NCBI GenBank assembly: GCA_002707495.1
Contig: PAMZ01000003.1
Span: forward strand, 248,001-312,000
DNA length: 64,000 nt
Source: Halobacteriovoraceae bacterium
GTDB taxonomy: Bacteria > Bdellovibrionota > Bacteriovoracia > Bacteriovoracales > Bacteriovoracaceae
Reading direction: 5' to 3'
The position numbers and the translations under genes were made by a program. Of this stretch, positions 5,692 to 21,467 are shown piece after piece; position 1 is the first letter of the stretch; each line of letters begins with the position of its first letter. The notes under the pieces are model-generated. The model saw nothing but the letters and a program-made list of their open reading frames with translations. It did not search any database and had not been told where the DNA came from.

Positions 5692-5693
5692 GA

Positions 5694-6429: not shown

Positions 6430-6732
6430 ATGAATCGTAGGAGCTTTGTTACAAAAATCAGTTTTCTGATGGGAATGCTTTTTTCAAGTAATCTTAGCGA
6501 TTCTCCCCCCTTTTCCGACAGTGAAAAATACGAGGTGATAAACCTTAATACAAACCCCGACTTATATGCTATTGAAAAGATAACCTTAACAACAGACCAT
6601 CAATTTCCAGTGGCTCTAAACGCTGGTAGTGAACCTATAAATTCATCTGACACAGTCTACCTCCTCCACAAACCAGGCACTTATCAATTGCAATATTTAG
6701 GTGCTTGTTATGGTTGGCTATGTCAGGGTTAA
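6430..6732 (+). CDS. small exported protein with Tat-like leader and two-Cys tail, unrecognised
   Basis: A 100-residue protein of unknown family. The N-terminus NRRSFVTKISFLMGMLFSS has the twin-Arg, Phe and Lys arrangement of a Tat signal. It ends with GACYGWLCQG, the only two cysteines, at the extreme C-terminus. The start ATG at 6430 has GGGGA directly against it, so the ribosome binding site is poor and initiation may be leaderless or lie elsewhere. It is the first gene before the precursor-maturase genes on the same strand (46-base gap). A second substrate of the radical SAM enzymes is one possibility, on position alone. Confidence 0.55.
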   Translation: MNRRSFVTKISFLMGMLFSSNLSDSPPFSDSEKYEVINLNTNPDLYAIEKITLTTDHQFPVALNAGSEPINSSDTVYLLHKPGTYQLQYLGACYGWLCQG

Positions 6733-6778
6733 AAAGCTTTGACCAGAAAGAAGCTTAAAAGTAGAATTCCACAATACA

Positions 6779-7849
6779 ATGATACACCGTGATTTAATTT
6801 TTTACATTAAAACAACCGAAACTTGTCAGCTTAATTGCGATCACTGTTTTACTAACGGTTCAAATGGGCAAAAGGGTTTTTTTGATGAAAATAGAGTCAT
6901 CGACTTTATGCACAAACTCAAAAATAAAGTGCCACAAATAAATAGTGGAAGCGTGACTTTCCATGGGGGAGAGCCAATGCTTTGTCCTCCAGAAAAAATG
7001 ATAGATCTTTGGCAAGCATGTCGAGATCTATGGCCAAGCCTTTTTTGGTCCATACAAACCAATCTCACATATAAAATAGACCCCATCAAGCTAACATTTT
7101 TTGAGAAAGTGTGTCAGAAAACTTGGGGTACATCTTGGGATTACGATCTCAGGTGGAAGTCTAAACGCTCTAGCGATCTGTGGCGATCCAATATAAAAGA
7201 ACTTGCGCAAGACGGGCACAACATCACAGTTATCGTCTCCTTAAGCAAGAAACTTTTGCAAGAAAAAGAACCCATTGAAGTTATTGAAGATCTAGCTGAG
7301 CTCGGAGTTAAACACGTTAACTTTGAAAGAATCACTTCAAATGGAAATGCTATTGCCAACAAGCGAGTATTTCCAAGTAATAAAGACTTGGATCATTGGT
7401 TTGATAAAATGTGGCGCCAAAGCGTAAATCAGAAAACATATCAATATATAGACAATTTATTTTTTGATTCGATACTTACCTCGGCAGTTTTTAACACATT
7501 CAGTGGCTGTCGGTGTAGGCAATGTGAACAGAAAGTTTTCACAATAAACGCAGATGGTTCCATTGGAGGTTGCCCAAATACTGCTGCTGAATCTCCCTTC
7601 GCCCACATCAATGAAAATATAGATGATATTCTTTTTAACCCTGGTAGACTTTGCAATATCGAAAAAGAGTCGCGGCGCAATCAAGCTTGTTATACTTGTG
7701 AGGTCTATGATATTTGTAATGGTGATTGTCATCAACTAGCATGGGAGAATGGGGTATGTGCTGCTCCAAAAACTCTCATGAGTGCTGTTAAAAAAAGTGA
7801 CAAAGAATTACTAAATAGTTTCCTCAACGGTTTTCAAGGTCAGGAGTAA
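6779..7849 (+). CDS. radical SAM/SPASM peptide maturase (copy 1)
   Basis: A 356-residue radical SAM enzyme. C16, C20 and C23 (TETCQLNCDHCF) form the CX3CX2C site for the SAM-binding 4Fe-4S cluster, and FHGGEPM is the GGE motif. The C-terminal SPASM region has the cysteines of CRCRQC, GGCPN, CYTCEVYDICNGDC and VCAAPK, which hold auxiliary clusters, as in peptide-modifying maturases. It lies 2 bases upstream of the precursor-like gene, whose SD (AGGAG) is within its last codons. It is a clear paralogue of the enzyme at 12366-13451 (shared KTTETC.LNC.HCFT, INADGSI.GCPNTA). Likely substrate: the adjacent Cys-His-Ser-tailed protein (inference). Confidence 0.9.
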   Translation: MIHRDLIFYIKTTETCQLNCDHCFTNGSNGQKGFFDENRVIDFMHKLKNKVPQINSGSVTFHGGEPMLCPPEKMIDLWQACRDLWPSLFWSIQTNLTYKIDPIKLTFFEKVCQKTWGTSWDYDLRWKSKRSSDLWRSNIKELAQDGHNITVIVSLSKKLLQEKEPIEVIEDLAELGVKHVNFERITSNGNAIANKRVFPSNKDLDHWFDKMWRQSVNQKTYQYIDNLFFDSILTSAVFNTFSGCRCRQCEQKVFTINADGSIGGCPNTAAESPFAHINENIDDILFNPGRLCNIEKESRRNQACYTCEVYDICNGDCHQLAWENGVCAAPKTLMSAVKKSDKELLNSFLNGFQGQE

Positions 7850-7851
7850 TA

Positions 7852-8442
7852 ATGACAACTGGAGAAAAAACAGATAAAAACCCAAAAATTGGAAAATTCA
7901 TCAATGATGTTATAACCGACTCCATCAACGCAGTACAAAGAGATAGTTCAAACTTACCGACTGGCACACTACCTAGTCCAGTTGTCTCAAAAAACTCATT
8001 AGGTGTGGCCCCAAACCAATTTAGTTCTATAGGTACCAATAGCACGGTACCAACTCGAGGAGGCCAACTAACCGCTTCAGCTTTGTCTGATTTATTTTTC
8101 GTCTATGCTCACAATCTTACATCTATAAGGCGGGCAACGGTGACTAGACTCAGCACAAACGATGGTACCCCAAGTTCATCCACTCTTTGGTCGAATCAAA
8201 TAACCTCACTATCATCTGATTATAAAATGGCTACCGGAACATTTAGAACTCAAGTTAACGCTCAAGGAGACCCCTTAAGTGGTTTACAACCAGGTAGTAT
8301 TGCCTCAAACACAGCGATCGATACCCTCATTGCTGCTTTACAAACTGTCCTACAAAATAATCGTACTTCAGCTTCGGTATCTATAACTGTTTGCCATTCT
8401 TCATGTCATAGTTCATGTCATGGTTCTAGAGGGAGGCGTTAG
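7852..8442 (+). CDS. RiPP precursor-like protein with Cys-His-x-Ser repeat tail
   Basis: A 196-residue protein with no signal peptide. Residues 1-180 are a Ser/Thr/Asn-rich, Cys-free leader-like domain. The last 16 residues are CHSSCHSSCHGSRGRR (181-196): three 4-residue repeats with C181, C185 and C189, the only cysteines, each followed by His and a Ser two positions on. A short, abruptly different Cys/His/Ser/Arg tail on a long leader beside a SPASM maturase is the hallmark of a RiPP precursor. The His-x-Ser spacing recalls the His-Xaa-Ser (HxsA) peptides, but the partners are not obvious HxsB/HxsC. SD AGGAG is 5 bases before the ATG. The modification itself cannot be read from the sequence. 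Confidence 0.8.
   Translation: MTTGEKTDKNPKIGKFINDVITDSINAVQRDSSNLPTGTLPSPVVSKNSLGVAPNQFSSIGTNSTVPTRGGQLTASALSDLFFVYAHNLTSIRRATVTRLSTNDGTPSSSTLWSNQITSLSSDYKMATGTFRTQVNAQGDPLSGLQPGSIASNTAIDTLIAALQTVLQNNRTSASVSITVCHSSCHSSCHGSRGRR
8392..8427 (+). repeat. three 12-base coding repeats for Cys-His-(Ser/Gly)-Ser
   Basis: Three consecutive 12-base units encode CHSS, CHSS and CHGS in the precursor-like gene. The second and third begin TCATGTCAT in a shifted register and are nearly identical as DNA, which suggests recent duplication of the unit. Confidence 0.85.
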
Positions 8443-8444
8443 AT

Positions 8445-9182
8445 ATGGAAAACCAAAACAATATTCGAGAGGTGACTGCCCCCTTAGAACTAGAGCAAAT
8501 TAAAGAGTATTTTGCAGATAAAAGTATCGTTTTTTTAGTGGATTACCAGAAATCGGAGTTAAAGGGGCCAACTTTTTTGACTTATCTCTCAAACTTAGAT
8601 TTACCTGCTGAAATCAAAATGCAAGATTCTGATTATCAGCAAAAAGAAGAAATACTTCTTTGCTATATGACGACAAGAAGTGTCTATCGTACCGAATGCC
8701 TTCTCTACAATATTATGTATCTACTCCTAAAAATGCGTGGGACTGATACAACAAATATAATTCTAAATCCGATCTTTTCGTCAAAAGAAGCCGAACAGTT
8801 TATTAAAAACCATAGAGACTTACTGGAGACTTGGGAACTTTTCATAGAAAGTACGACCCTATATGCTCAAACTTGTGTAGAAGATTTAATGGACTCAGAA
8901 ACTATAAAAAATAACTTTGAGGAAGTTCAAGACCAAGAGGCGATTGGGTCCAATGTAGTCAACCTTTTTGGACTACCGGCGTTTATGGAGCTCTTCTTTT
9001 CGACTCCTTTAAAACATACTCCAAAATATTTCACCTGTCAGTTTGAGGATTATATGTTTAGGGGAAAAAACCTCTATAGCTATTACGCAGTTGAAGAGAA
9101 TCGTGTTTTCAAAATGTTTCTTGCACATATAGAGGGTATGATTGATGTCAAGGCAATCGCTCGGGAAGTTGAGAAATTATAG
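8445..9182 (+). CDS. unrecognised cytoplasmic protein coupled to the precursor gene
   Basis: A 245-residue protein with no signal peptide, membrane helix or motif I can assign. It is acidic, with several cysteines (LLCYMTTRS, TECLLYN, QTCVEDL, FTCQFEDY) not arranged as a cluster motif. The start follows the precursor stop by 2 bases with GGGAGG about 9 bases upstream, so it is translated with the precursor and maturase. Its 3' end overlaps the convergent glycosyltransferase-HipA gene by 35 bases. A leader-binding or maturation partner is the natural guess from position; nothing in the residues proves it. Confidence 0.7.
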   Translation: MENQNNIREVTAPLELEQIKEYFADKSIVFLVDYQKSELKGPTFLTYLSNLDLPAEIKMQDSDYQQKEEILLCYMTTRSVYRTECLLYNIMYLLLKMRGTDTTNIILNPIFSSKEAEQFIKNHRDLLETWELFIESTTLYAQTCVEDLMDSETIKNNFEEVQDQEAIGSNVVNLFGLPAFMELFFSTPLKHTPKYFTCQFEDYMFRGKNLYSYYAVEENRVFKMFLAHIEGMIDVKAIAREVEKL

Positions 9183-10725
9183 TTCTTTTAAGTTCCGATA
9201 GCTTTTGGAATTGATTTTCTAAAATTTCTTGAAATATTTCTTTTTCATGACTATCAAAAAAAACTACTTTATTTATCAAGTCTATAAGCCTAGCTTTTGA
9301 GATACTGTCAATAAATTGAACAGCTTCAAACTCCTTTCTATGAAGACTGATAAAACTATAAACTGAGTCCACCGAAAAACAAGCAGGTGAACCAGGAACT
9401 AAAGACTCTCCTCCAAAATTAGTGTCAATCACGAAATCATAGATTGGCTCATACTTTCCACACTTATCAATTTCTTTTTCATCAAAAATAAGTCGTAAAG
9501 AGCGAGCATCTCTAAAAGGATTTTGAATTAACAAATCAAAAAGTAAAATACGGATCATAAAATTTCCGCAGTCTTTTTGAGTCTCCTCATTCAAGATATT
9601 AAGAAGTATATTTGGATTGCGCTCTTTCGAGTCAATGGTCCGCGAAGTTAGATAAACGAGAGGTTCCATCCGTATGACTCCCTCGTAAGACCTTATATCA
9701 TGGGTAAGAAGGTACAAATCATTTTGAATTGTTATAAGTTCACTTTTTTGGCACTCGATTCCAAGCTCTTCGGCTAATAAACTGCCAATGTATTGAGTCT
9801 TTATGAATGGGATTTTTTGTCTCTTTCCTTTAAACAAACATTGCAAACCTTTCAGTGTATAAATTTTACCAGTTTTAGATTCAAGTAGCTGTAGGTAGTC
9901 TGCAGGTCCCTTTTTAGGGTGTCTAAAAAGTGGATCGATAATATCAAAGGAAGTATCCCTCCACCTGATTTTTGTATGAGAAAAGTCTGCTGGCAGTGCT
10001 GCCGTATTTTGCCTTAGCACTTTTTCATTGAGACCAGAGGTATTTACTTTCAATAGTTTTTTATATTGTCCAATCCAAATATCTTGATATTTCTCATCCA
10101 ATTGAATCTCGAACGGAGTCCCGTTTGTAAAATGATAAGCCTGAATCTTCCTTTCTTCGCCTTGAAACTCTCCTACTAAATGATTCCATGTTAAGGGCAA
10201 GCTCCCAATTGCATCATTCTCTTTGATCCACTTAAATTGGTGCAAATCGAGTCCTGAAGCTTCGTTTACATAGTCAATAGAAAGCGCCCGGCACCTCTCA
10301 TTATTAAAGAGCATCAAACTTGACCAATTTTTAGCTTTATATTGATATTGGGTAAGAGAGTTCTTTTTTAAATTTAAATTTGGCTGATAGTCGTGCTTAC
10401 AAAGCATGACACTGAACTGATCGTCACGAAGAGAAAAAATTTCGTAGGGATCGTCACAAAAAATAAAATCACAATCACAATAAAGACTCCACCCCTCATA
10501 ATCAGAAAGAAAGGGAACCAAGAACCTAGATATAGAAAAGTCTGAGGAGTCAAACTGCGAACGCTGCCGCTTAAACTGAGGGATCTGAGATCTAACGATG
10601 GGAATAATAGAAAGAGGTTTTGAACTATGTTCCAGCAAACTTTGCGTCAACAGGTGATAAGAAACAGTCTCTTCTGGATCAAAACCAATAAAAATTCTTA
10701 ACCTAGAGCCTAGAACGGATTCCAA
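9148..10725 (-). CDS. glycosyltransferase fused to a HipA-like domain
   Basis: A 525-residue two-domain protein. Residues 8-225 are a family-8-like glycosyltransferase: RIFIGFDPEETVSYH start, DxD motif D84-C-D86 in LYCDCDFIF, and KNWSSLMLF, WNHLVG and HFTNGTPF blocks. Residues 255-500 resemble the HipA kinase C-terminal part: YIGSLLAEELGIEC, then LLFDLLIQNPFRDARSL (401-410, in place of the family's N-x-D-x-H-x-K-N catalytic loop, keeping an Asp), then YEPIYDF (425-431, the second metal-binding Asp). The catalytic loop is changed, so kinase activity is uncertain. It is the only minus-strand gene inside the cluster's first half, convergent with 8445-9182. The fusion is unusual; the HipA call is moderate. 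Confidence 0.7.
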   Translation of the reverse strand: MESVLGSRLRIFIGFDPEETVSYHLLTQSLLEHSSKPLSIIPIVRSQIPQFKRQRSQFDSSDFSISRFLVPFLSDYEGWSLYCDCDFIFCDDPYEIFSLRDDQFSVMLCKHDYQPNLNLKKNSLTQYQYKAKNWSSLMLFNNERCRALSIDYVNEASGLDLHQFKWIKENDAIGSLPLTWNHLVGEFQGEERKIQAYHFTNGTPFEIQLDEKYQDIWIGQYKKLLKVNTSGLNEKVLRQNTAALPADFSHTKIRWRDTSFDIIDPLFRHPKKGPADYLQLLESKTGKIYTLKGLQCLFKGKRQKIPFIKTQYIGSLLAEELGIECQKSELITIQNDLYLLTHDIRSYEGVIRMEPLVYLTSRTIDSKERNPNILLNILNEETQKDCGNFMIRILLFDLLIQNPFRDARSLRLIFDEKEIDKCGKYEPIYDFVIDTNFGGESLVPGSPACFSVDSVYSFISLHRKEFEAVQFIDSISKARLIDLINKVVFFDSHEKEIFQEILENQFQKLSELKRTIISQLPERLP

Positions 10726-10854
10726 AATAAATCTCCAATCAATAAATCATCGTTAATTTACGATACTAAAGTACTGATAGCTGTTCAAATCAACTTGAAC
10801 TCTTACACTAAATATGAGTCAATTAAAATGAAATAAAGAGAAGAAGGTTTTTAT

Positions 10855-11403
10855 TTGAGTATCCCGAACTTTACTGACTTTTTTACACAAGGCTTTATTT
10901 TTTTTGAAGATTTTTCTAGCATTGATATTGATGCTGCCTATCAACTTCACTATCCTAACTCTGAAGATAATGAGCTTTACACTATCCCAGAAGAAGCTAG
11001 AGTACTACTTCAAAGAATTCAACAAGAGTTTGCCCAAAGATACATTGTGATGATTTTCAATCAATTCAAAATCAAAGAAATTGGAATATGGGATGGAGCA
11101 GACTCTGGCTCTATTAAATGGCACAATGACAATAACCCCATTAACGGGATGAATGCCAACTTACTAATTTATCTCGATGATTGCAATCCTGAAACGGGCG
11201 GAAAAATAGAGGTCCGATCTGATCATAGCTATAAATTTATTTACCCTCGCAGGGGACAAGCCATTTTTCTCAACCAGTCACCACAATTCCAACATAAAGT
11301 GACTCGTTCCAGTAAAACGCGAAGGGTTATAAGTCTAGAATACTTTATCGACGATTTGGTGAGCGGATACCAACCAAAACAACGCACCGAAAAAGACCTG
11401 TAA
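10855..11403 (+). CDS. 2-oxoglutarate/Fe(II) oxygenase (copy 1)
   Basis: A 182-residue prolyl-hydroxylase-type oxygenase. Iron ligands are H90 and D92 in IKWHNDNNP and H147 in FQHKVTRS; R157 (KTRRVISL) would bind 2-oxoglutarate. The LLIYLDDCNPETGGKIEV block is typical of the fold. The start is TTG at 10855, supported by AGAAGG 9 bases upstream. It opens the second half of the cluster (10855-18071, all plus strand). Its likely role is hydroxylation of a peptide or amino acid side chain. It is a paralogue of the enzyme at 17282-17797. Family call is firm, substrate unknown. Confidence 0.8.
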   Translation: MSIPNFTDFFTQGFIFFEDFSSIDIDAAYQLHYPNSEDNELYTIPEEARVLLQRIQQEFAQRYIVMIFNQFKIKEIGIWDGADSGSIKWHNDNNPINGMNANLLIYLDDCNPETGGKIEVRSDHSYKFIYPRRGQAIFLNQSPQFQHKVTRSSKTRRVISLEYFIDDLVSGYQPKQRTEKDL

Positions 11404-11464
11404 ACTAGAGTTTAGAATGCTGAGTTGGCAGTTCAATTAGAGTGCGTTATATCTTTATTAAATC

Positions 11465-12382
11465 ATGAATATCAGTCTTAATCCCACATATCTTTGTAAT
11501 CTAAGATGCCAATTCTGCTATTTGACTCCTGCACAGTTATCAGAAACTAGATATGCCTCTTTAAAAGAAATCAACCAACGATTAAAGGAAATTTCAGATT
11601 TTTCTCCTATTCAACATGTCGACATTTACGGTGGTGAGATCTCACTTCTCCCGGAGGAGTATCTAGAGGAATTATTGGTTATTCTCTCCTCTTACTGCAG
11701 ACCTCCTTACAATATTATCACTAACCTCACCAGAATTTCACCTTTATTTAAAGACGAACGGGTCCACTTGTCAGTCTCTTATGACTTTGAAGCTAGAAAA
11801 TTTAATGAATTAGTGTTTCAAAATATGTCTTTACTCAATAAAAATATTTCTGTCCTCATTCTTGCTTCTCCTCAGGTTATTGCAATGAATGTAGATTCGC
11901 TTATTGAAAAACTCAACCTTCTTTCTAATATTATTAGTGTTGAAATAAAGCCTTACTCAACAAATCAAAGTAATCAATTACCTATGAACTTCAAAGATTT
12001 TGAAGATTTTATCAAACAATGGCTTCAATCTAGAGTTCCCAAAAAATTTCTCTTTGTTAACGAAAAAAAAATTCAAGATTCACTTGCAAGGTCTTACAAT
12101 GCTTTTAGCGACGATCATATCTATATCACTCCTCAAGCGAAGTTAGGAGTTCTTGATTTTGATGCTACTGACAACGAGTATTTTAGAGAGCTAGAAAGCA
12201 TAGATGATTATCTTTTTTGGTCAAAAAAAGAAAAAGAGAAAATTTCTAAGAACGACTTTTGTAAATCGTGTAACTACAAAGGTCATTGTTTAACAGAGCA
12301 TTATCGTGATGTTAAAGGGCTCAAGTATTCATGTAATGGATATAAACATTTACTCGACTGGTATCATGAATCTTTCGTCTAA
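11465..12382 (+). CDS. radical SAM protein with short C-terminal Cys domain
   Basis: A 305-residue radical SAM protein: C11, C15, C18 (TYLCNLRCQFCY) bind the SAM cluster, and IYGGEIS is the GGE motif. The C-terminus has CKSCNYKGHC and SCNGY, a shortened SPASM/twitch-like cluster site. The core (about residues 90-200) is shorter than in the SPASM paralogues. There is no strong SD before 11465. The 3' end overlaps the next radical SAM gene by 17 bases. The product is not recognised beyond the superfamily; a peptide-modifying role follows from the neighbours. Confidence 0.85.
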   Translation: MNISLNPTYLCNLRCQFCYLTPAQLSETRYASLKEINQRLKEISDFSPIQHVDIYGGEISLLPEEYLEELLVILSSYCRPPYNIITNLTRISPLFKDERVHLSVSYDFEARKFNELVFQNMSLLNKNISVLILASPQVIAMNVDSLIEKLNLLSNIISVEIKPYSTNQSNQLPMNFKDFEDFIKQWLQSRVPKKFLFVNEKKIQDSLARSYNAFSDDHIYITPQAKLGVLDFDATDNEYFRELESIDDYLFWSKKEKEKISKNDFCKSCNYKGHCLTEHYRDVKGLKYSCNGYKHLLDWYHESFV

Positions 12383-13451
12383 TATTACCGTCTATTTAAA
12401 GACGACTGAAACATGCAACTTGAATTGCTCTCATTGTTTCACCTCTGGCTCTAAGGGAGCGAAAATAATTTTTTCTCCGCAGAAAACGATCCATTTTTTT
12501 GAGCGACTAAAAAATGCCTTTCCGCACATTGAATCTATTCGCTATCTTTTCCATGGAGGAGAGCCATTTTTAGCTCCACTGGATACTCTTTATCAAGCCT
12601 ACTTTGGTTTAAAAGATTTGTTTCCTAAAACTAGTTTTGGTATGCAAACGAACCTTGTTTACCCGTTAAGTAATGAGAAAAGAGCTTTCCTTAAAGAAGT
12701 CCTCTATAATTATGGATTCGGGACCTCATGGGACTATGACATCAGGTTTGGATCTTTACTCAATAAAGCAAAGGATTCGCAACAGGCGATTTGGGAAAAG
12801 AATGTCAGAACTCTGACCCAAGAAGACGACCACTATATGACAATGATCGTTTCTATAACTAAAGGTCTTATTGAAAATAAACAACCTATTGAGATTTTAA
12901 GATACGCTCATAAACTAGGGTTTAAACATATACTTTTCGAGAGAATTACAAGCGACGGAAATGCCATCGAAAACCATGAAATCATACCCTCGAATCGTAG
13001 CCAAGACGAATGGCTATACAAGATGTTTGAACAAACTATGAAATACAAAACTTATGAGTATATAGGAAACATGTTCATTTCGGAACTCGCTCAGGCTTAT
13101 GTCAATCGCTCCCATGTTGGTAACCGTTGTCGCAACTGTGAAGAAAGCCTACTAACAATAAACGCTGATGGCTCGATAGCGGGATGTCCTAATACTGCTC
13201 CTGTTGATCACTGGGGTCATATTGACTGGCCTCTTACAAAAAGTTTTCAATCAAGTAACCGCCTTAAAACAATTTCTTGTGAGAGGTATGATCGCAATCC
13301 TCTATGTTTTTCTTGTCCAGCATTTGAACTTTGTAATAGTGATTGCCACAAACTTAAGTGGGACGAAAATGAAAGTTACTGTGCAGCTCCTAAAAAAATT
13401 TGGTCTCATATGTTAAAAAATTCAGAAAACTACAGTGAGTTGATTATATGA
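12366..13451 (+). CDS. radical SAM/SPASM peptide maturase (copy 2)
   Basis: A 361-residue enzyme. C17, C21, C24 (TETCNLNCSHCF) and FHGGEPF mark the radical SAM core. The C-terminus has SPASM cysteines (CRNCEE, GCPN, CFSCPAFELCNSDC, YCAAPK). The ATG at 12366 is chosen because it aligns with the paralogue's start; an in-frame ATG at 12306 would add 20 non-homologous residues inside the upstream gene. It is clearly homologous to the maturase at 6779-7849, and no second CHSS-type precursor lies next to it, so it may share that substrate or act on one elsewhere. It ends in ATGA overlap with the next gene. Confidence 0.88.
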   Translation: MNLSSNITVYLKTTETCNLNCSHCFTSGSKGAKIIFSPQKTIHFFERLKNAFPHIESIRYLFHGGEPFLAPLDTLYQAYFGLKDLFPKTSFGMQTNLVYPLSNEKRAFLKEVLYNYGFGTSWDYDIRFGSLLNKAKDSQQAIWEKNVRTLTQEDDHYMTMIVSITKGLIENKQPIEILRYAHKLGFKHILFERITSDGNAIENHEIIPSNRSQDEWLYKMFEQTMKYKTYEYIGNMFISELAQAYVNRSHVGNRCRNCEESLLTINADGSIAGCPNTAPVDHWGHIDWPLTKSFQSSNRLKTISCERYDRNPLCFSCPAFELCNSDCHKLKWDENESYCAAPKKIWSHMLKNSENYSELII

Positions 13452-14554
13452 ATATCGACAATAGACCTATAGACCTGATTGTGAAACCTACTGAAGCTTG
13501 TAATTTCGCATGCAGTTTTTGCAGTTCTAGCTATTTAGTCGAAAATAAAAGATCAAAATTAGACCTTATTTATATCTTTGAGTTTTTAAAACGCTTTCCT
13601 AATACTCAGACTATTATAATCAACGGAGGGGATCCCTTGATGATGCCTGTGGGATACTACTGGCAATTAATAGAGCATCTCGAGCAGTACAATTATATAG
13701 CCGATATCTCAATAACCACTAACCTATGGAAGTTTTGGCAAGAATGGCAAAATGACAAAAAACCAAAATACTGGACTGAGCTTTTTAGACACAAAAGAGT
13801 CAACGTAACCACCTCGTTTCAATATGGAGAAGGAAGACGAATTTCAAAAAACGAAATTTTCACAGAAAAGCATTTTATAGCAGTTTCAAATCTGATGTTA
13901 GAAAAAGTAGGATACCGGCCGTCATTTATAAGCGTTATTGAAGAGCAGGATTTAGATTCCTGTATAAATAACGTTCGTCTAGCAAAAACACTAGGTGTGG
14001 ACTGCAAATTAAATTACGCCAATAAAAGTGGAGACTGTGACAAGCCTCTACCCTTATCATTTATTTATGAAGTTTATATTAAGATTTATGAAGAAGGCCT
14101 CGTCGATCATGAGTGGAATACTCGTCAAATGATTAATAGCATTCAACAATACCATTCGACTGCATGTCCACTTAACAGGAGTTGCGACAGTGGAATTAGA
14201 GTTCTTCAACCGGATGGAAGATATTTTAGTTGCGGGGCTTTCGGAGATGATCAAAGGTATGAGATTGATTTTCAGAAGGAAGTACATGAGGGTGACTTCT
14301 TTAAGCCTTTAGAGGATGACATCAACTTACAAGTCATTAAAAAGGATTGCTACACATGTGATATGTTTTCCATTTGTAACGGATGCAAAAAACATATCAG
14401 CGATCTTAAAGAATCTAATCTCACAGAGAGGCATTGCGCAAAAATGAAATCAATTGCACCTAAAATCATGAATATAGCTGATAATTCTCCACCAATTGAA
14501 ATCAGAAATGATACCTACTATCAAGGCTTAAATGTTAATGAAACTAACGGCTAG
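13448..14554 (+). CDS. radical SAM/SPASM protein
   Basis: A 368-residue radical SAM protein: C18, C22, C25 (TEACNFACSFCSSS) and INGGDP (GGD in place of GGE). SPASM-type cysteines lie in ACPLNRSC, YFSCGAFG and CYTCDMFSICNGCKKH. The start overlaps the previous stop (ATGA at 13448), so translation is coupled. It differs from the KTTETC pair and is not an obvious copy of any other gene here. The function is not recognised; it probably acts with the neighbouring maturases. Confidence 0.88.
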   Translation: MNIDNRPIDLIVKPTEACNFACSFCSSSYLVENKRSKLDLIYIFEFLKRFPNTQTIIINGGDPLMMPVGYYWQLIEHLEQYNYIADISITTNLWKFWQEWQNDKKPKYWTELFRHKRVNVTTSFQYGEGRRISKNEIFTEKHFIAVSNLMLEKVGYRPSFISVIEEQDLDSCINNVRLAKTLGVDCKLNYANKSGDCDKPLPLSFIYEVYIKIYEEGLVDHEWNTRQMINSIQQYHSTACPLNRSCDSGIRVLQPDGRYFSCGAFGDDQRYEIDFQKEVHEGDFFKPLEDDINLQVIKKDCYTCDMFSICNGCKKHISDLKESNLTERHCAKMKSIAPKIMNIADNSPPIEIRNDTYYQGLNVNETNG

Positions 14555-14588
14555 ACGATAGATTTTATTATTTCTAATATAGTGACTC

Positions 14589-15590
14589 ATGGATAACTAC
14601 GCACTGATTCAAAAAAAAATTGTCACTTATTCAGAAGTCGTTATTTGTCTTTTTGACAGCTGCAATTTGAATTGTGCCTTTTGCCCTCAAGATCACAATT
14701 CCACCTTATTTATGAACCGCAAAGATATCATGAATAAAACCTCGACTGTCATTCATTGGATAAATAATAAGTCATCGTCTTTCATTAAAATTCACCTGAT
14801 GGGAGGAGAACTATTTCAAGACGACCTTGTAGACAAACAATTCCTTCAGATTTACTCTGATTTTGTTGATGAAATTAAATCCAAAGTAAATCCTGAAAAA
14901 GAACTCTACTTTAACTTCATTACTAATTTAGTTTTTACCAGGCAAACAGAAGTCTATGATTTTCTAAAAAAACATCGGTTAGAGTTTTCTATTTCTTATG
15001 ATCCAGTTGGAAGGTTTACTCCTGCCGCTATGGTACAATTTCAAGAAAACCTTAAGTTCTTTCATAACAAAATAAGTATGGTCTCAATTGTTCTAAGCGC
15101 TCAAAATATAAAAAAAATACAACATGGCGATCCAGTCTTTGATAAATTATATGGTAGTTATCCTTGTGATTTTGACCAATTTCTACCTAGCGTTCATAAT
15201 TCAGATGCTTTCATACCCAGCGCAAGTCAAATTAGAGATTTTTATATTTTTTTAATTGAAGAGTATCCAGAATGCTTAACGATAGAACATTTCATAACCA
15301 AAGAGGGTGCAAAGAAAATGCGTTGCACTCGAGGAAATTCTTTAACAATACTAAATGATGGTTCCGTGCCTCAGGAGTGCTCCGGTTCTATTTTTCTCAA
15401 AGACGGGCAAAAAGAGCAACTCGATCAACCTAAAATTGTTTACGATTATATAGGTAAGCAAAACTGTCTTACCTGCGCCTACTATGAAAGATGCCCATTT
15501 CCTTGCTTTGTCGCATCCAGCTACCATGTCAAAAAGGACGATATAGGACGTTGTCTCTACAAGGAGGTTTTTGATTATACAGTCTCTTAA
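14589..15590 (+). CDS. radical SAM protein
   Basis: A 333-residue radical SAM protein with an N-terminal strand before the cluster site: C25, C29, C32 (DSCNLNCAFCPQDHN), and LMGGEL. C-terminal cysteines in MRCTRGN, PQECSG, CLTCAYYERCPFPC and GRC suggest an auxiliary-cluster domain. The SD before the ATG at 14589 is weak. The last codons contain AAGGAGG, which serves the next gene, and the two reading frames overlap by 20 bases. Function beyond the superfamily is not recognised. Confidence 0.85.
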   Translation: MDNYALIQKKIVTYSEVVICLFDSCNLNCAFCPQDHNSTLFMNRKDIMNKTSTVIHWINNKSSSFIKIHLMGGELFQDDLVDKQFLQIYSDFVDEIKSKVNPEKELYFNFITNLVFTRQTEVYDFLKKHRLEFSISYDPVGRFTPAAMVQFQENLKFFHNKISMVSIVLSAQNIKKIQHGDPVFDKLYGSYPCDFDQFLPSVHNSDAFIPSASQIRDFYIFLIEEYPECLTIEHFITKEGAKKMRCTRGNSLTILNDGSVPQECSGSIFLKDGQKEQLDQPKIVYDYIGKQNCLTCAYYERCPFPCFVASSYHVKKDDIGRCLYKEVFDYTVS

Positions 15591-17310
15591 TATAAGTTTT
15601 ATAAATCCGCCTCATGCAGATTGGTCTATGGCAAACAACTTAACTTATCACTATTGTCAAAGCCACTATAGGCGTTACGGTAAATATTGTGAGCATGTCA
15701 ACTGGATTCCGGCTCCTTTTCGTTGGAACACGTACACATGTTTTGATGAGATAGTTAAAGAAATTGGCTCTTGCGATATACTTCTCATGAGTTCCTACAC
15801 TTGGAATGCTGACCTTGTAGATAAGTTTGCTCAGTTCTATCGGAAACTCTTTCCGGATTCTATATTAGTCATTGGAGGACCACATATTGGGACTAATGAA
15901 GCTGAACTATTAAAAAAACGAGAGGAGCTTTTTGACTATATTTGTCTTCCTACTAAACCAGGAGAAGTTTTCGTCCAAGACTTAATAGATGAGTGGTTTG
16001 AAAATAATGGCTCCCCTCTAAGAGAAAAAATTGCATGGGAACTCAAAAGTGAAAAAAAACGCAGTCTTCCTTTTGATCTAGATTACTCTATATATAAAGA
16101 GCACTCAGATACTTACAAGTTACAATTAGATCACGCAAAGAAATACCGTCTAGAACCTTTTATCTCTCTTGAAACAACACGAGGTTGTCCTTACAAATGT
16201 GTCTATTGTGAATGGGGAGGAGGGACTGGAACAAAAGTCTATCAAAAACCATTAGATATAGTAAAAGAAGATATCAGAGTTTTAACCGAAATGGGTTACA
16301 CCAATGCCTACCTAACAGATGCTAACTTCGGGATCTTTAAGGAACGAGACTTCGAAATCTATCGTTTTGCCCATGAGAAAAGTTTCGCTCTGACAGATAT
16401 CTCAACCGTAAAAGTACCTCAACTAGCTAGACGCAAAGAGCTCATAGATTTTTGCTTTGATGTGGTAGGTAAAGGACCTGAAGTTCACACGAAGGTTGAT
16501 ACGGGAACTGACATGTGGGGAATGATGGAATACGCATCCTCAATTCCCGCCGTTTCGATCCAAAGCATCTCAACTAAAGCAATGACAATTTCTCATCGGA
16601 TCGACCTTAAAACGCACGAGAAAATTGAACTTAGTAAACATATTTATGAAAGATGTAATAAAGAAGGCTTCCCGGTACCTGCGATTGAATTAATCTTGGC
16701 CATGCCAGGCTCTACGCTAAAAGATTTTTATGAAGAAATGAATCTTATCTGGAACTTTCAGGCATGGAATAGCTTCCGCCATGATTATATGTTTTTACCG
16801 GATTCTGAACTAAATTCTCAAGAATATAAAGATAAATATAATATTGAAACTGTGGAAGTCTATTCGGATATCGTAGACGAGGATGGGATAGATAACTGGA
16901 ATAGCCTGTATCGAAATAAACGCAGCTATTTTAAAACTATTCGGTCTTGTTTTTCATTCAGCGCAGAGGAAATGGTTGAAATGTGGTTTATGAACAATGC
17001 AGCTAATTTTTTGCTGAGAAATATTTATCCTATGGTCAAAGAACATTGCACCCCACCTCTATTTGCTAAATCATGCTATACAATTATCCAAACGTTGGAA
17101 GGGTTTAACTACATGCAAGAAGAAATATATGACTTGTACAATCCGAAAACAGAGCCACGCTCAATTCGAAAGCTTCAAGGAAGTTTCCGAGTGGAAGTGA
17201 TTGAAAAATTTTTAGCGAGAAATCAAAAACTGATTTACAATGAAATTTTTAAACAGTTTGTAGTCAAAAAGGATCATTCCAATGCTGAGTCTGATGTCCT
17301 CCATCCGTGA
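15571..17310 (+). CDS. B12-binding-type radical SAM protein
   Basis: A 579-residue protein. Residues 1-145 resemble a cobalamin-binding Rossmann domain (ISFINPPHADW, ILLMSSYTWNADLV, LVIGGPHIGTNE), without the classic DxHxxG loop. The radical SAM core follows with C206, C210, C213 (TTRGCPYKCVYCEW), then a C-terminal region to 579. Members of this class often perform methylations or ring-forming C-C chemistry. The start is TTG at 15571, fixed by AAGGAGG at 15561-15567; it overlaps the preceding gene by 20 bases. It overlaps the downstream oxygenase by 29 bases. Substrate unknown. Confidence 0.88.
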   Translation: MIIQSLNISFINPPHADWSMANNLTYHYCQSHYRRYGKYCEHVNWIPAPFRWNTYTCFDEIVKEIGSCDILLMSSYTWNADLVDKFAQFYRKLFPDSILVIGGPHIGTNEAELLKKREELFDYICLPTKPGEVFVQDLIDEWFENNGSPLREKIAWELKSEKKRSLPFDLDYSIYKEHSDTYKLQLDHAKKYRLEPFISLETTRGCPYKCVYCEWGGGTGTKVYQKPLDIVKEDIRVLTEMGYTNAYLTDANFGIFKERDFEIYRFAHEKSFALTDISTVKVPQLARRKELIDFCFDVVGKGPEVHTKVDTGTDMWGMMEYASSIPAVSIQSISTKAMTISHRIDLKTHEKIELSKHIYERCNKEGFPVPAIELILAMPGSTLKDFYEEMNLIWNFQAWNSFRHDYMFLPDSELNSQEYKDKYNIETVEVYSDIVDEDGIDNWNSLYRNKRSYFKTIRSCFSFSAEEMVEMWFMNNAANFLLRNIYPMVKEHCTPPLFAKSCYTIIQTLEGFNYMQEEIYDLYNPKTEPRSIRKLQGSFRVEVIEKFLARNQKLIYNEIFKQFVVKKDHSNAESDVLHP

Positions 17311-17797
17311 ACGTGGCTATTACAAGCTTAGTGAACCTGATGCTCTTAATCTTATTGATATTGACAAGTACACTTTAAAAAATGTCGAAGAGCGCTCTAG
17401 AGACAATGGTGAAAAAGATCTACCAGAAGATTTAACCCAAAAGCTATTGATTTTTGGAAACTATTTAAAAACTAAGTATATTGACCCAAATTGGCCACAA
17501 AGTGTATTCAATAAATTCTTAGTATGGCAAGGTGTGGACAGAGACAACCAAGGTTGGCACACAGATCTTTTTGAGAACTATGATATTTTTTTTCTTTTTT
17601 ATTTTGATGACACTTTTCCTGAGAGCGGCGGCTCGATAAACTTCAAATGGGATAAAGACAAAACCGCAAGTTTTCAACCAAAGAAAGGAGATCTATTTCT
17701 CGTTAATAATACAAGAGGGTTTTGGCATCGAGCTGAATCTACACAAATTTTAAGGAGGACAGCAAGTTTTGACTTCAATACAATCACTGGTATCTAA
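17282..17797 (+). CDS. 2-oxoglutarate/Fe(II) oxygenase (copy 2)
   Basis: A 171-residue oxygenase: H93 and D95 (GWHTDLFENY) with H149 (GFWHRAES) as iron ligands and the LRRTASF Arg pair for 2-oxoglutarate. LFYFDDTFPESGGSINF parallels the LIYLDD..PETGGKI block of the enzyme at 10855-11403, so the two are paralogues. AAGGAT lies 7 bases before the ATG at 17282, which is inside the B12 radical SAM gene. Its likely role is a second hydroxylation in the same pathway. Family call firm, role inferred. Confidence 0.78.
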   Translation: MLSLMSSIRERGYYKLSEPDALNLIDIDKYTLKNVEERSRDNGEKDLPEDLTQKLLIFGNYLKTKYIDPNWPQSVFNKFLVWQGVDRDNQGWHTDLFENYDIFFLFYFDDTFPESGGSINFKWDKDKTASFQPKKGDLFLVNNTRGFWHRAESTQILRRTASFDFNTITGI

Positions 17798-18071
17798 AAA
17801 AGATAAGCTTTGCACAGAACGAGACCTTTGTGCTGAACTTTACAATGTTTGGATCACGAAGTTACATGATGTACAGGAAGATGAGGACCAGTACAATATG
17901 TACCTTCAAATGATCGCAAACCTGGAGCCTTACGGTCAAATGATCAAAGAGCAAATCAGAGAAATAAATCGCAAAATATGCGATCACTATGGGGTAGATT
18001 CAATCGAAAAAACTCCTCACATGAAAGACTGTGTGGCTAAATTTGGTTTTGATCGACCTAATCGAGACTAA
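17769..18071 (+). CDS. small helical protein, unrecognised
   Basis: A 100-residue charged, mostly helical protein with no signal peptide. Cysteines in DKLCTERDLC, RKICDHY and MKDCVAK are not in a known motif. The start is TTG at 17769, with AAGGAGG at 17752-17758 ten bases upstream; it overlaps the oxygenase gene by 29 bases. It is the last gene of the tightly packed plus-strand run and overlaps the convergent gene at 18058-18504 by 14 bases. It may be a small accessory or carrier protein; no family is recognised. Confidence 0.6.
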   Translation: MTSIQSLVSKKDKLCTERDLCAELYNVWITKLHDVQEDEDQYNMYLQMIANLEPYGQMIKEQIREINRKICDHYGVDSIEKTPHMKDCVAKFGFDRPNRD

Positions 18072-18504
18072 GATTAAATTCTGAATAAAAATAGTTTACG
18101 CTTGCTTTAACTTGGCTCTTTTTGTTTGCTTCAAAGTCCATTAACTTTTCTTTTTTTAGTCGAGCTAAAACATTATCGTAAGTTTCGCAATCGTCTTGAT
18201 AGGTCACGAAGTATTTATCTGTTCCCAGGAATAATTCAGGATCTGAAAGTAAAGAATAAAAATCTTCAGAAAAATACTTTTCTATTAATTTTGCATAAAT
18301 AATAGCCACCGCGTAAGACTTTGCTGGATAAACAATACTCCAGTGGTCGTCAGTAAAATAATTATAAATTTTTTCCTCTAAATTGCTCCCAGATAGACTC
18401 TGTACTTGATAAGGAATATGATCAATCAAGTCCTCGATCTTATTTAATCTATGATACAATATTTGGTGAAGTTTATAGTCTTTCAATTTCTTATGATAGC
18501 TCAT
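18058..18504 (-). CDS. unrecognised small protein antisense within the cluster
   Basis: A 148-residue protein rich in Tyr, Lys and Asp, with no signal peptide, membrane helix or known motif. It overlaps the preceding plus-strand gene by 14 bases at its end. Its start lies only 14 bases from the start of the divergent gene at 18519, so any promoter for it lies inside that gene. No clear SD precedes the ATG. The amino acid composition looks coding, but the gene is less certain than its neighbours. Confidence 0.6.
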   Translation of the reverse strand: MSYHKKLKDYKLHQILYHRLNKIEDLIDHIPYQVQSLSGSNLEEKIYNYFTDDHWSIVYPAKSYAVAIIYAKLIEKYFSEDFYSLLSDPELFLGTDKYFVTYQDDCETYDNVLARLKKEKLMDFEANKKSQVKASVNYFYSEFNLSLD

Positions 18505-18518
18505 TTGGAAAACTTAGC

Positions 18519-19463
18519 ATGGCACATATAGCAAAAAATTTTTTCCTTTCACATATTTCGGAACACTATTCATATCCAAACAGCAAGGTCTTGTTTTCTC
18601 CCAATTATGTAGAGGAGAACCCTGAGGATATATTTATTATCAGTAAATATGCCAAAAATTTTAGCGACTATCTACAAGATTTTCATTCAAGTAATCTAAA
18701 TGACTTTTGGGAGGTAAACCTGACGGGACCTAAAACAATTGTTTTTACTTGTTCTTATTTAATTGAAAACTTAAGTCTTCAATTTTGGGCCAATATTTTC
18801 TCTAAACAAAATGATTTGGTTTATCAAATCTACACCGCCTATCAAAAACTTTGGCTTACCAAGTCGATGCGACTCATGCACGAAAACTCCCATCTTAAGC
18901 AAAATTTTATTTCAATTCCATTCCAAACAAGGCTCACAAAAGAAAGGCTCCAAAATACCCCTAAGATCCCGATTATCCAAAGTCTTTCTCCTAAGGATTT
19001 AAACTTGGATCTGCGAATTGCTAACTTCTTATCTCCTTCAGTATCACTTGGTCAAGATACCTATCTTCTTGATCAGTTTAGACATATTGCCGAGACCTCA
19101 CTTTTTAAAATATTAGAAGAAGTGAGAGAAACAATTTTAGATAATTATTTTCAGCTCCAGCAACATTCACTTTTAAGGCAGTATATAAATTTTGAAAATT
19201 TCTCATTATTTCTCCCTCAAAAGAATCGAACACTTGAAGAAATCCTTAAAATAATCTCATTGCAGGAAATAAAAAGAATTATCAAAATTCTTGAAGATGA
19301 GCTGGGTAAATCCTTTTATGAGTGCTTTGAGATGATCGACATTCTTGAGAAGAATCAAATCGAAACCTGGATGAGACAACAAAATTCTTATGGCTTTCCT
19401 CTGAATTTCTTCGATGATTCGTGTGATAATTTACGATTAGTGATGGAGGCGGTCTCACAATAA
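18519..19463 (+). CDS. unrecognised protein of the radical SAM cluster
   Basis: A 314-residue cytoplasmic-looking protein, rich in Leu, Phe, Ser and Asn, with a helical C-terminal half (FKILEEVRETILDNYFQLQQH, KIISLQEIKRIIKILEDELG). No catalytic motif or membrane helix is recognised. It starts 14 bases from the divergent gene at 18504. The stop TAA overlaps an ATA triplet that may start the next gene (see the findings). It is probably co-transcribed with the next gene; the function is unknown. Confidence 0.7.
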   Translation: MAHIAKNFFLSHISEHYSYPNSKVLFSPNYVEENPEDIFIISKYAKNFSDYLQDFHSSNLNDFWEVNLTGPKTIVFTCSYLIENLSLQFWANIFSKQNDLVYQIYTAYQKLWLTKSMRLMHENSHLKQNFISIPFQTRLTKERLQNTPKIPIIQSLSPKDLNLDLRIANFLSPSVSLGQDTYLLDQFRHIAETSLFKILEEVRETILDNYFQLQQHSLLRQYINFENFSLFLPQKNRTLEEILKIISLQEIKRIIKILEDELGKSFYECFEMIDILEKNQIETWMRQQNSYGFPLNFFDDSCDNLRLVMEAVSQ

Positions 19464-19516
19464 TACCACTTTTTCAAAACTTATATTTAGAACATATAGA
19501 AGCCTATCGCTATGGG

Positions 19517-20422
19517 ATGAGAGAGTTCTTTTTCCTTAAAGAAAAAAGGGAGCATCCTGAGGCAAAAAGACTCAAGCACGATCATACTTTTGATTTTTAT
19601 ATTGATGATTTTGATCAGACATTACAAAGTCAATACAACAATAACTTAGAGTTGTTAACGCGTAAAATCTATAAGACTCAAAAGAAAACTGTCCTTTTTT
19701 GTGATGATTTTTACCTAATTTCTATTCTCAAAGATTATTTGGCAAGTCTTGAAATCTTATCTGAAGACAAAAAACAACTAGAATTACTTTTTCAACTCTA
19801 TTTTTACAAAGCTCGAGGAAAAAAGGTAACCCAAACTTCTAATTCATTTTCCCTTGATTTCTCTCTATTTAAATTTTCAAGTTCCCCCCTTTATTTAAAA
19901 ATACTTTATTACTATCCAAGAGATCTGAAAAAATTATATTCTCTTGATGTGTCTGAGCAAATTAGCACTGCCTGGATAGGCTATGTAAAGTTTATGGCGA
20001 GAGATATTCTAAGAAGCGGCTATCTTTTAAACTCTGTTTCAAAAAGTAATGAAACGCCAACAATAGACGAACTCAATGCTTTTTTATTAAAAGACCCTAA
20101 TCTAAACTGGCTAGTTGACAAAGATTTTGAATTTAAGTCAAGACAGGAGATATGTGAAACCTACTCATCGAAGGTTTTCATTAAGCTTTTTGCCTTATAC
20201 GAGGCTTATCAAGCCGCTGGCTTTAGATCAAAAAATATATATCCTCATGATAAAGTTTTTTTAACTCTTACTGAGATGTTTTATTCTAAAGAAACTATTA
20301 AGATCGATGACTTGCTTATCTATAAATATCCCCTTATATTTTTTAAGCATACTAATCATTTATTTCTCCTCAGTTATGCACTTAGCAAGGTTGCAATTGA
20401 AGCTCAGTTCAAAAACAAATAA
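19517..20422 (+). CDS. unrecognised protein of the radical SAM cluster
   Basis: A 301-residue protein from the first ATG, with no recognised domain and rich in Tyr, Phe, Leu and Lys. The frame stays open and protein-like upstream to 19460 (PLFQNLYLEHIEAYRYG before the ATG) although no ATG, GTG or TTG occurs there. GGAGG at 19445-19449 sits 10 bases before ATA at 19460, which overlaps the previous stop, while the ATG at 19517 has only a weak SD. The true start may therefore be the non-standard ATA. The function is unknown; it forms a pair with 18519-19463. Confidence 0.7.
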   Translation: MREFFFLKEKREHPEAKRLKHDHTFDFYIDDFDQTLQSQYNNNLELLTRKIYKTQKKTVLFCDDFYLISILKDYLASLEILSEDKKQLELLFQLYFYKARGKKVTQTSNSFSLDFSLFKFSSSPLYLKILYYYPRDLKKLYSLDVSEQISTAWIGYVKFMARDILRSGYLLNSVSKSNETPTIDELNAFLLKDPNLNWLVDKDFEFKSRQEICETYSSKVFIKLFALYEAYQAAGFRSKNIYPHDKVFLTLTEMFYSKETIKIDDLLIYKYPLIFFKHTNHLFLLSYALSKVAIEAQFKNK

Positions 20423-20510
20423 AGTAAATGATTTTCTAGGTACTTAGCATTTTTTTAAACGTACTCAAAACATGAAATTATGATAAAATTTAACGGCAAG
20501 GAGTCTTTAA

Positions 20511-21467
20511 ATGAAAATTTTAGCATTTCTTTTATTTTTTACGTTTTCTTCATTCGCTTTTGCTCAAGTTGAGTTTGTATGGGGAATTAACGAATCACTT
20601 GACCAATATAAAATTCAAGCTGATAAATTTAAGAAAATTATCGAAGAACAGACTAAAGGTGAGGTCCTGGTCAAAGTGGTTCTTTACAAGAAAGACCCTC
20701 AAAGACCCTTTGAGCTGATAAAAAATGACTCTTTTCACATGTATCAAATAACAACAGATAATGTTCAAGAGAGAACTAAGACTAAATACCCGTTCCTAGA
20801 CGCTTGGCACGTTCCCTTTGTGTTTAAAAACCCTGAGCACGTAGAAAAATATATAAATTCTAAAAGAAGTATGAATAATCTGAAACTCTTAGAAACGGAC
20901 GATTATTTGGCTTTCAACTATTCTTATGCTGGTGGTTTTGTATCAGTAATTGATAAGAACCCTGTTCACAATCAAATGCACTTAAAAGATTTAAGAAATT
21001 TTTGTCCGATGACAGAACTATCGGGCGAAAATGATAAAAACAAACAGAACTTTGCAGCTCAATTTCATCAAAAACTACCTTGTTTGGCGCTTTTGTATGA
21101 ATTGAATGAATTTAAAAATTTTGCAGATAAGCTTCCTCAAGAGGTATTTATCAACCTTACTTATCATAAAGTTGTTTCGCGTGTTTCAGTCATCTCGAAA
21201 AAATTTTTATCGCAACTCTCCATAAAACACAAAGATCTCTTTTTAAGCCATCTAAATAGTATCCTTGCTGAAGAGCGTGCAATAGTAAACGAGAGAGGAA
21301 GGCAAAATTTAAAGAGGATAGGAAATATCCCCAACTTGAAAATGGTTCGTTTAAAAGATGTGCAACATCAAGTGAAACCTGATCCGAATCGATCACAGAG
21401 CTTGCAATCTGAAATTGATTTTATAAGAGGTCTCGAAGAAATTAAACAGGAGCAAGCTTCTAAATAG
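20511..21467 (+). CDS. TRAP-type (DctP-like) solute-binding protein
   Basis: A 318-residue periplasmic protein with signal peptide (1-18, cut after FAFA). The order of segments (EQTKGEVLVKV, DSFHMYQITTDNV, FPFLDAWHVPFVFKNPEHVEKY, then AGGFVSVIDKNPV) follows the DctP family that captures organic acids for TRAP transporters. No DctQ or DctM membrane subunit is near, so it may be an orphan binding protein or work with a distant permease. The SD AAGGAG lies 7 bases before the ATG. It follows the cluster's last gene by 88 bases with its own likely promoter (TATGAT upstream), so membership of the cluster is unsure. Confidence 0.75.
   Translation: MKILAFLLFFTFSSFAFAQVEFVWGINESLDQYKIQADKFKKIIEEQTKGEVLVKVVLYKKDPQRPFELIKNDSFHMYQITTDNVQERTKTKYPFLDAWHVPFVFKNPEHVEKYINSKRSMNNLKLLETDDYLAFNYSYAGGFVSVIDKNPVHNQMHLKDLRNFCPMTELSGENDKNKQNFAAQFHQKLPCLALLYELNEFKNFADKLPQEVFINLTYHKVVSRVSVISKKFLSQLSIKHKDLFLSHLNSILAEERAIVNERGRQNLKRIGNIPNLKMVRLKDVQHQVKPDPNRSQSLQSEIDFIRGLEEIKQEQASK

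Follow-up and report, generated by a model that had tools for sequence, protein, structure and literature searches.

We analysed a window of 64,000 nt (bases 248001–312000 of its contig) from the draft genome (89% complete) of a Halobacteriovoraceae bacterium and identified a gene cluster with six intact radical S-adenosylmethionine (rSAM) enzymes, two 2-oxoglutarate (2OG) oxygenases, and one tailed carrier protein at 6430–20422. The system is shared by large phages and some Bdellovibrionota, and its sharing with viruses was absent from the initial annotation of this DNA. The direct observations concern which genes are present, how they are conserved and ordered, which of them co-occur or covary, and the integrity of their motifs. 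We favour, at about 60%, the reading that the cluster resembles the systems for ribosomally synthesized and post-translationally modified peptides (RiPPs), that it modifies the tail of the carrier protein, and that this tail is displayed at a fibre contacting a host or prey cell.

Gene content and the conserved tail

The rSAM motif CX3CX2C is intact in B, G, H, I, J, and K, and the HxD...H motif followed by an Arg is intact in F and L. Open reading frames and motif checks thus agree with the initial annotation, which had described six rSAM proteins, two HxD...H oxygenases, a run of overlapping genes on the same strand, and a Cys-free body with a 16-residue Cys/His/Ser/Arg tail. The carrier protein, its partner, and the candidate enzymes are as follows, with the strand in parentheses.

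B, 6779–7849 (+): rSAM/SPASM enzyme directly upstream of precursor C; core enzyme; 36–47% identity in phages
C, 7852–8442 (+): carrier or precursor protein with a folded Cys-free body of ~180 residues and a C-terminal tail
Tail of C, 8392–8439 (+): modified-tail candidate CHSSCHSSCHGSRGRR, near-invariant at the exact C-terminus
D, 8445–9182 (+): partner protein of 245 residues; phrog_20767 (1e-59); in 50/50 viral loci tested
F, 10855–11403 (+): 2OG-Fe(II) oxygenase with H90, D92, and H147
G, 11465–12382 (+): rSAM enzyme tied to RxRR-ending tails; 44–55% identity in phages
H, 12306–13451 (+): second rSAM/SPASM enzyme, a paralogue of B; start perhaps at ~12366
I, 13448–14554 (+): SPASM-like rSAM enzyme of the core and the most conserved enzyme; 47–51% identity in phages; in 50/50 viral loci
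J, 14589–15590 (+): rSAM enzyme whose best NCBIfam match, HxsB, is far below cut-off; in 41/50 viral loci
K, 15571–17310 (+): B12-binding rSAM enzyme (Pfam B12-binding and Radical_SAM), probably of C-methyltransferase type
L, 17282–17797 (+): second 2OG-Fe(II) oxygenase, with H93, D95, and H149
N, 18058–18504 (-): protein of 148 residues; phrog_20737 (1.3e-27); co-occurs with G

Conservation is concentrated in the tail of C. When the tail pattern was profiled across 369 genomes of the phylum, it had one match in the window genome and occurred in nine of the 369 genomes, with none for the reversed control; the pattern is far beyond chance. The initial annotation had named absence of the tail from related clusters as evidence against itself, but 64 of the 78 precursors homologous to C keep it and end strictly in CHxxCHxxCHxxRxRR at the exact C-terminus. 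These strict enders have 37 distinct tails, in which C1, H2, C5, H6, C9, H10, R13, R15, and R16 never vary, and (C)HxS repeats are present in most tails. Mean pairwise identity among 47 precursors is 81% in the tail versus 22% in the body. A conserved tail on a diverging body is the reverse of the ordinary leader and core of RiPPs. The RiPP-like precursor first described holds as a ribosomal protein with a C-terminal segment encoded beside enzymes of peptide-maturase type; a classical precursor with a conserved leader and a core does not fit a folded carrier with a variable body.

The AlphaFold2 model of C (predicted local distance difference test [pLDDT] score of 84) has a confidently folded body and a low-confidence tail. 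A fold search with C found nothing in the PDB; elsewhere, its matches were confined to its own viral family and a single further phage. The model of D (pLDDT 94.8) matched no solved fold in the PDB, and a PDB sequence search with the C and D profiles gave nothing real. One viral precursor (L080:7379–7936) has five CHxS units, CHCSCHSSCHSSCHSSCHSSRARR, which suggests that the repeat number can vary. Two short tandem precursors of ~125 residues each, with the same tail type, occur at L088:3489–4249 and L117:585–1354.

Relatives in large phages

Searches with B, D, and I by tblastn each returned exactly the same seven phage records, which represent six phages with genomes of 225–490 kb: Agrobacterium phage Atu_ph07, Sinorhizobium phage Phosso, Burkholderia phages FLC6, FLC8, and SURPRISE13, and Pseudomonas phage pPa_SNUABM_DT01. 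In all five phages inspected, rSAM B is followed by a gene whose product ends in CHxxCHxxCHxxRxRR. Precursor C itself had no phage match by tblastn because its body is too divergent and its tail too short, and the phage relatives were found through the neighbouring enzymes. A scan of IMG/VR identified 315 relatives of I, and the results for viral loci rest on the best 80 of these. Of 58 viral loci with C, 48 have B at most 200 bp upstream of it and 49 have D at most 300 bp downstream. The usual viral order is B-C-D-J-(K-L-M-F)-I-G-N, and in the window cluster these parts are rearranged. In PHROGs, C, D, and N fall into uncharacterised families (phrog_35144, phrog_20767, and phrog_20737, respectively).

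Outside virus collections, a scan of 84,980 prokaryotic species genomes with I found at least five clear homologues, four of them on contigs of metagenome-assembled genomes that look or may be viral. Plasmids gave only matches to other rSAMs, at ~25% identity. The published descriptions of FLC6 and S13 mention the rSAM, cupin, and 2OG genes without giving them a role (PMC8066314, PMC11898562). No description of this system was found in a literature search made mostly without subscription papers, and within that literature the earlier statement that no system with this gene set had been described is borne out. Two dihydrofolate-reductase-like genes were also seen inside the cluster of Burkholderia jumbo phages (L053:20406–21583 and L055:20319–21532).

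Relatives in bacteria and transfer of I

Orthologous clusters are present in other genera of the same phylum. Bacterial precursors end in CHSSCHSSCHGSRGRR, CHNSCHSACHNSRGRR, CHSNCHSNCHGSRGRR, CHASCHSSCHGARGRR, and similar sequences, and more divergent tails follow the same logic, such as WCHSSHSSHSSHSSRGRR in genome G006, CHSNHCSHSNHGSRGRR in G125, and CHGNFPPPCHGSRGRR in G143. A contig scan with H alone found no relatives. In G160 the cluster lies inside an essentially single contig of 4.15 Mb and is therefore chromosomal. In G125, two divergent copies of rSAM I lie around one precursor with an unusual tail (L190:9479–14162).

A tree was constructed from 57 I proteins. The window protein groups with those of G034, G160, and G143 (100/97). 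Bacterial sequences do not form one clade, and well-supported branches require two or more switches between a bacterial and a non-bacterial source, which indicates that transfer between viruses and bacteria has happened.

Covariation of the tail end with G, J, and N

Fifty viral loci contain C and I with more than 4.5 kb of sequence past I, and every one of them also has D and B or H. The RxRR end, G, and N are all present in 41 loci and all absent in nine, with no exceptions, and J is absent as well from the nine RxRR-less loci. Relaxed thresholds recovered no match to G, J, or N in the RxRR-less clade, cross-hits aside. This pattern suggests a division of labour in which the arginine end is the target of G, J, and N, or the cause of their action, and the CHxS repeats fall to B, I, and D.

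Enzyme families

Family membership was judged by curated NCBIfam and Pfam score cut-offs. B and H carry the rSAM core motif and SPASM-type C-terminal cysteines, and both are over the cut-off of 27 bits for the SPASM domain TIGR04085 (28.7 and 28.4 bits, respectively); I is under it (23.2 bits). B-type and H-type proteins share 42%–44% identity. Matches of B and H to the anaerobic sulfatase maturase, DarE, DynA, and PapB score 36–63 bits against cut-offs of 340–650, and for FxsB, GrrM, DarE, and PapB the best matches are 25–56 bits against cut-offs of 310–650. The initial annotation had named HxsB, HxsC, GrrM, and FxsB as families to check, and matches to all of them fall below the curated cut-offs.

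F is over the cut-off of 27 bits for Pfam 2OG-FeII_Oxy_3 (PF13640; 35.8 bits, 1.6e-8), and L, with its motif intact, is just under it (25.3 bits, 3e-5). The best NCBIfam family for K is KedN5 (4.8e-24), with 84.5 bits against a cut-off of 700, and K is a probable C-methyltransferase of the B12-rSAM type.

Fibre and fibre-like genes beside the cluster in viruses and bacteria

The 59 proteins directly upstream of viral B include 23 in phrog_19602 (tail fibre), 10 in phrog_7389 (tail fibre), and 10 in phrog_697 (structural). Peptidase_G2 is an autoproteolytic intramolecular chaperone (IMC) domain of phage appendages, and it is matched by nine of 16 aligned upstream fibres. A cupin-like gene immediately precedes B at 54 loci, among them all five phages inspected and many viral contigs. 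C is gp170 in Atu_ph07, for which the numbering of coding sequences (CDS) in the published paper matches the record. CDS 170–215 are listed among three virion-protein-rich blocks of the Atu_ph07 virion proteome (PMC6102473).

Recurrent neighbours of the bacterial clusters are u2, u3, and A:

u2, 4654–5691 (-): protein with a prepilin-like N-terminus and a C-terminal Peptidase_S74 chaperone; proposed pilin-fibre display protein
u3, 5694–6323 (-): conserved fibre-like protein ending in GRHWVKVK
A, 6430–6732 (+): small protein whose N-terminus resembles an RR-type signal; divergent member of the family adjoining u2 and u3

The functional unit reaches left to u2 and u3 (4654–6323). Of the bounds first given for the cluster (6430–21467), the span 6430–20422 stands; the gene at 20511–21467 falls outside the set, and the left edge moves to 4654. 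The N-terminus of u2 has a prepilin cleavage motif (GMSLLEVIIA) and a hydrophobic helix, as in type IV pilins, and homologues beside several bacterial clusters have equivalents; matches to NCBIfam pilin models reach only E values of 0.004–0.007. Its C-terminus matches Pfam Peptidase_S74 (8e-13) and, as in S74 chaperones, has the SDxxxK motif, here SDQNIK. Matches of u2 to PHROG tail-fibre families reach 6e-22. Comparing the u3 profile with those of viral fibre C-termini gave only a weak similarity (probability of 54% over 60 columns). Members of the A family adjoin u3 at other loci, and A itself has a weak match to the hidden Markov model (HMM) of the family (E value of 0.0016 within the window set).

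Among the 369 genomes, u3 is present in 20 and I in 18, with 15 shared (hypergeometric P value = 6.6e-20, for related genomes that are not independent). Five genomes have u3 without I. In at least three of these, a different multi-rSAM cluster is close to u3: it adjoins u3 in G010 and G012, and a similar cluster lies ≤10 kb away in G029. Precursors of this second cluster end in CxC repeats, for example DCICNSDCNCNAVCNCHNNCGCHY. Since u3 is found beside or near a second, different rSAM cluster with a Cys-rich-tailed protein, these genes are best read as one display module that would serve exchangeable tail chemistries. The second cluster was seen by or near u3 at L185:1–11267, L186:9267–19994, and L188:8742–12234, with CxC-repeat tails of the type DCICNTDCACNAVCTCHNDCGCHY and similar, and its rSAMs are also under all curated cut-offs.

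Proposed mechanism and alternative explanations

In the proposed mechanism, the substrate would be the C-terminal CHxSCHxSCHxSRxRR tail of the folded carrier C, and the core set would consist of an rSAM/SPASM enzyme (B or H), the second rSAM enzyme I, the carrier, and its partner D. B or H, together with I, would install bonds or oxidations on the CHxS repeats, with D as partner. The predicted minimal set is B, I, and D together with C, and phages kept in laboratory culture carry the system. An optional module of G, J, and N would process or modify the RxRR end, K may add methylation, and F and L may add hydroxylation. The finished tail would be displayed on the tail-fibre apparatus in phages, and on the pilin-like S74-chaperone protein u2 and the fibre-like u3 in bacteria, where it would act in recognizing or penetrating the target bacterium. 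The role of C as substrate, the step given to each enzyme, the display on a fibre, and the location on the virion are predictions from sequence comparison. A multi-step, peptide-directed modification system acting on a C-terminal Cys/His/Ser/Arg tail, as the initial annotation had proposed, is supported by these results.

More tentatively, and at somewhat less than even odds, this shared chemistry (up to six rSAMs, B12-rSAM methylation, and 2OG oxygenation) may produce a new kind of modified fibre tip, a non-canonical peptide head-group on the virion. If so, radical chemistry, and not protein sequence alone, would shape part of the apparatus with which some phages contact their hosts, and Bdellovibrio-related bacteria would carry the same chemistry. 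This would give rSAM peptide maturation a new role and phage-host recognition or entry a new layer, with many uncharacterised enzymes acting on one defined, nearly invariant 16-residue substrate.

Several observations weigh against tail modification and fibre display. None of the six rSAMs reaches a curated NCBIfam maturase cut-off; scores to non-peptide families, which had been named as evidence against a peptide pathway, are likewise all below cut-off. The nine RxRR-less loci all belong to one clade, so the link between RxRR and G, J, and N may reflect a single evolutionary event. Phage gene order is modular, and the adjacency to fibre genes may be incidental. Each of the three virion-protein-rich blocks of Atu_ph07 spans exactly 46 CDS, so the listing does not establish that gp170 itself was detected. 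Among the bacteria, the enzyme occurs without a u3 match in G006, G134, and G360, and the similarity of u3 to the phi29 pre-neck appendage region is weak (E value of 0.05).

An explanation that we consider unlikely, though the strongest of the alternatives, is that the tail is modified by the rSAMs and serves as a metal- or redox-active, cofactor-like group on a virion or intracellular protein, with adjacency to fibre genes resulting from the clustering of late genes. CH repeats make good ligands for metals, the folded body of the carrier has no match among solved structures, and at L080 and L062 the cluster adjoins DnaJ-like rather than fibre genes. Against this, the bacterial partners (u2, u3, and the signal-bearing A family) resemble surface or fibre proteins, the co-occurrence of u3 with the enzymes holds where no phage is involved, and the trio of u2, u3, and A also adjoins a second tail chemistry.

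An ordinary secreted RiPP, an antimicrobial or signalling peptide with a C-terminal core that is cleaved and exported, was considered and rejected as very improbable. It would account for a short Cys-rich C-terminal segment beside rSAM/SPASM enzymes, as in known RiPPs, and RxRR could serve as a processing site. Here, however, an invariant "core" follows a variable "leader", searches of the conserved genes revealed neither a RiPP transporter nor a leader peptidase, and lytic phages carry the cluster beside tail genes. Membership in the known His-Xaa-Ser (HxsABCD) system was rejected as well, with odds that we judge slighter still. Its H-x-S repeated motif is found here (the tail in G006 is CHSSHSSHSSHSSRGRR), the best NCBIfam match of J is HxsB, the second best of I is HxsC, and one of 56 precursors matches HxsA at an E value of 0.009. 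These scores are far from the cut-offs, at 29.5 bits against 370 for HxsB (TIGR03978) and 30.9 bits against 267.9 for HxsC (TIGR03977); HxsA (TIGR03979) is over cut-off in 0/59 genomes, with sub-cut-off matches mostly outside the HxS-repeat part of the model; and no NCBIfam match to HxsD was found among the cluster proteins. Gene set, tail position, and context also differ. Just as improbable is a phage anti-defence or metabolic operon, such as one for viperin-like nucleotide chemistry or glycan synthesis, in which the tailed protein is merely a neighbour. Accessory genes of this kind may counter defences, as suggested in the S13 paper (PMC11898562), and several rSAMs have weak matches to the viperin family, but at 20–31 bits these are under the cut-off of 180, covariation ties the tail to the enzymes, and the gene order B-C-D is kept.

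Other genes in the window

The remaining genes in and beside the cluster are as follows.

E, 9148–10725 (-): accessory protein of 525 residues, outside the core
M, 17769–18071 (+): protein of 100 residues after K and L; homologues at 17 loci
O, 18519–19463 (+): divergent member of the "MLHLFNKVYL" family, which occurs at 75 loci
P, 19517–20422 (+): second divergent member of the "MLHLFNKVYL" family
DctP-like gene, 20511–21467: DctP-like solute-binding protein of the tripartite ATP-independent periplasmic (TRAP) type, right of the cluster and outside the conserved set

E had been taken for a glycosyltransferase-HipA-like fusion, an identity that is not upheld by any significant match in Pfam, NCBIfam, or the PDB. 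Its residues 56–223 are covered by phrog_28018 (1.4e-35), a PHROG of unknown function, and E thus also has viral relatives. Homologues of E occur at only three other loci, and with the glycosyltransferase lacking database support, the glycosylation step first suggested is not supported. O matches by BLAST (7e-8) a copy in G034 that scores 60 bits in the "MLHLFNKVYL" family HMM, and P also matches a G034 copy (7e-8). The DctP-like gene has no obvious transporter partner. Left of u2, on the minus strand at 529–3343, a clostripain-family peptidase adjoins a transglutaminase-elicitor-like protein. The window was considered as a prophage, and this was rejected: its flanks encode a peroxidase, AcrB, phosphoenolpyruvate carboxylase, and histidine kinases, and the relative in G160, with its single large contig, is also opposed to it.

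Comparison with known systems

The Hxs system was defined by bioinformatics (Haft and Basu, as cited in PMC9062424). It likewise has two or more rSAM enzymes beside an H-x-S-repeat protein. Here, the tail is at the extreme C-terminus, with a Cys before each His and an RxRR end, and the enzymes are different and many more, with no HxsD and with a phage and fibre context. B and H have the rSAM core and SPASM-type Cys clusters of PapB, DarE, DynA, and the anaerobic sulfatase maturase and would be expected, like them, to act on Cys, Ser, or His side chains, but they belong to no curated maturase family. K resembles the B12-dependent rSAM C- and P-methyltransferases KedN5 and PhpK in its B12-binding and rSAM domains and its KedN5 match; it differs in scoring far below the KedN5 cut-off and in its putative substrate, probably a peptide tail.

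On the display side, the system is related to the phi29 pre-neck appendage (gp12) and other Peptidase_G2 IMC fibres through the viral fibres directly upstream of B and, weakly, through u3. To our knowledge, no modified-peptide system is known for these fibres. A precedent for how u2 and u3 might work is provided by the mosaic adhesive trimeric (MAT) fibres of Bdellovibrio bacteriovorus, which are phage-derived and use phage-type S74 chaperones for prey contact (PMC10769870). No peptide-modification cluster was found in the consulted passages of that paper. Unlike the MAT fibres, u2 combines a short length with a prepilin N-terminus and is tied to a peptide-modification cluster.

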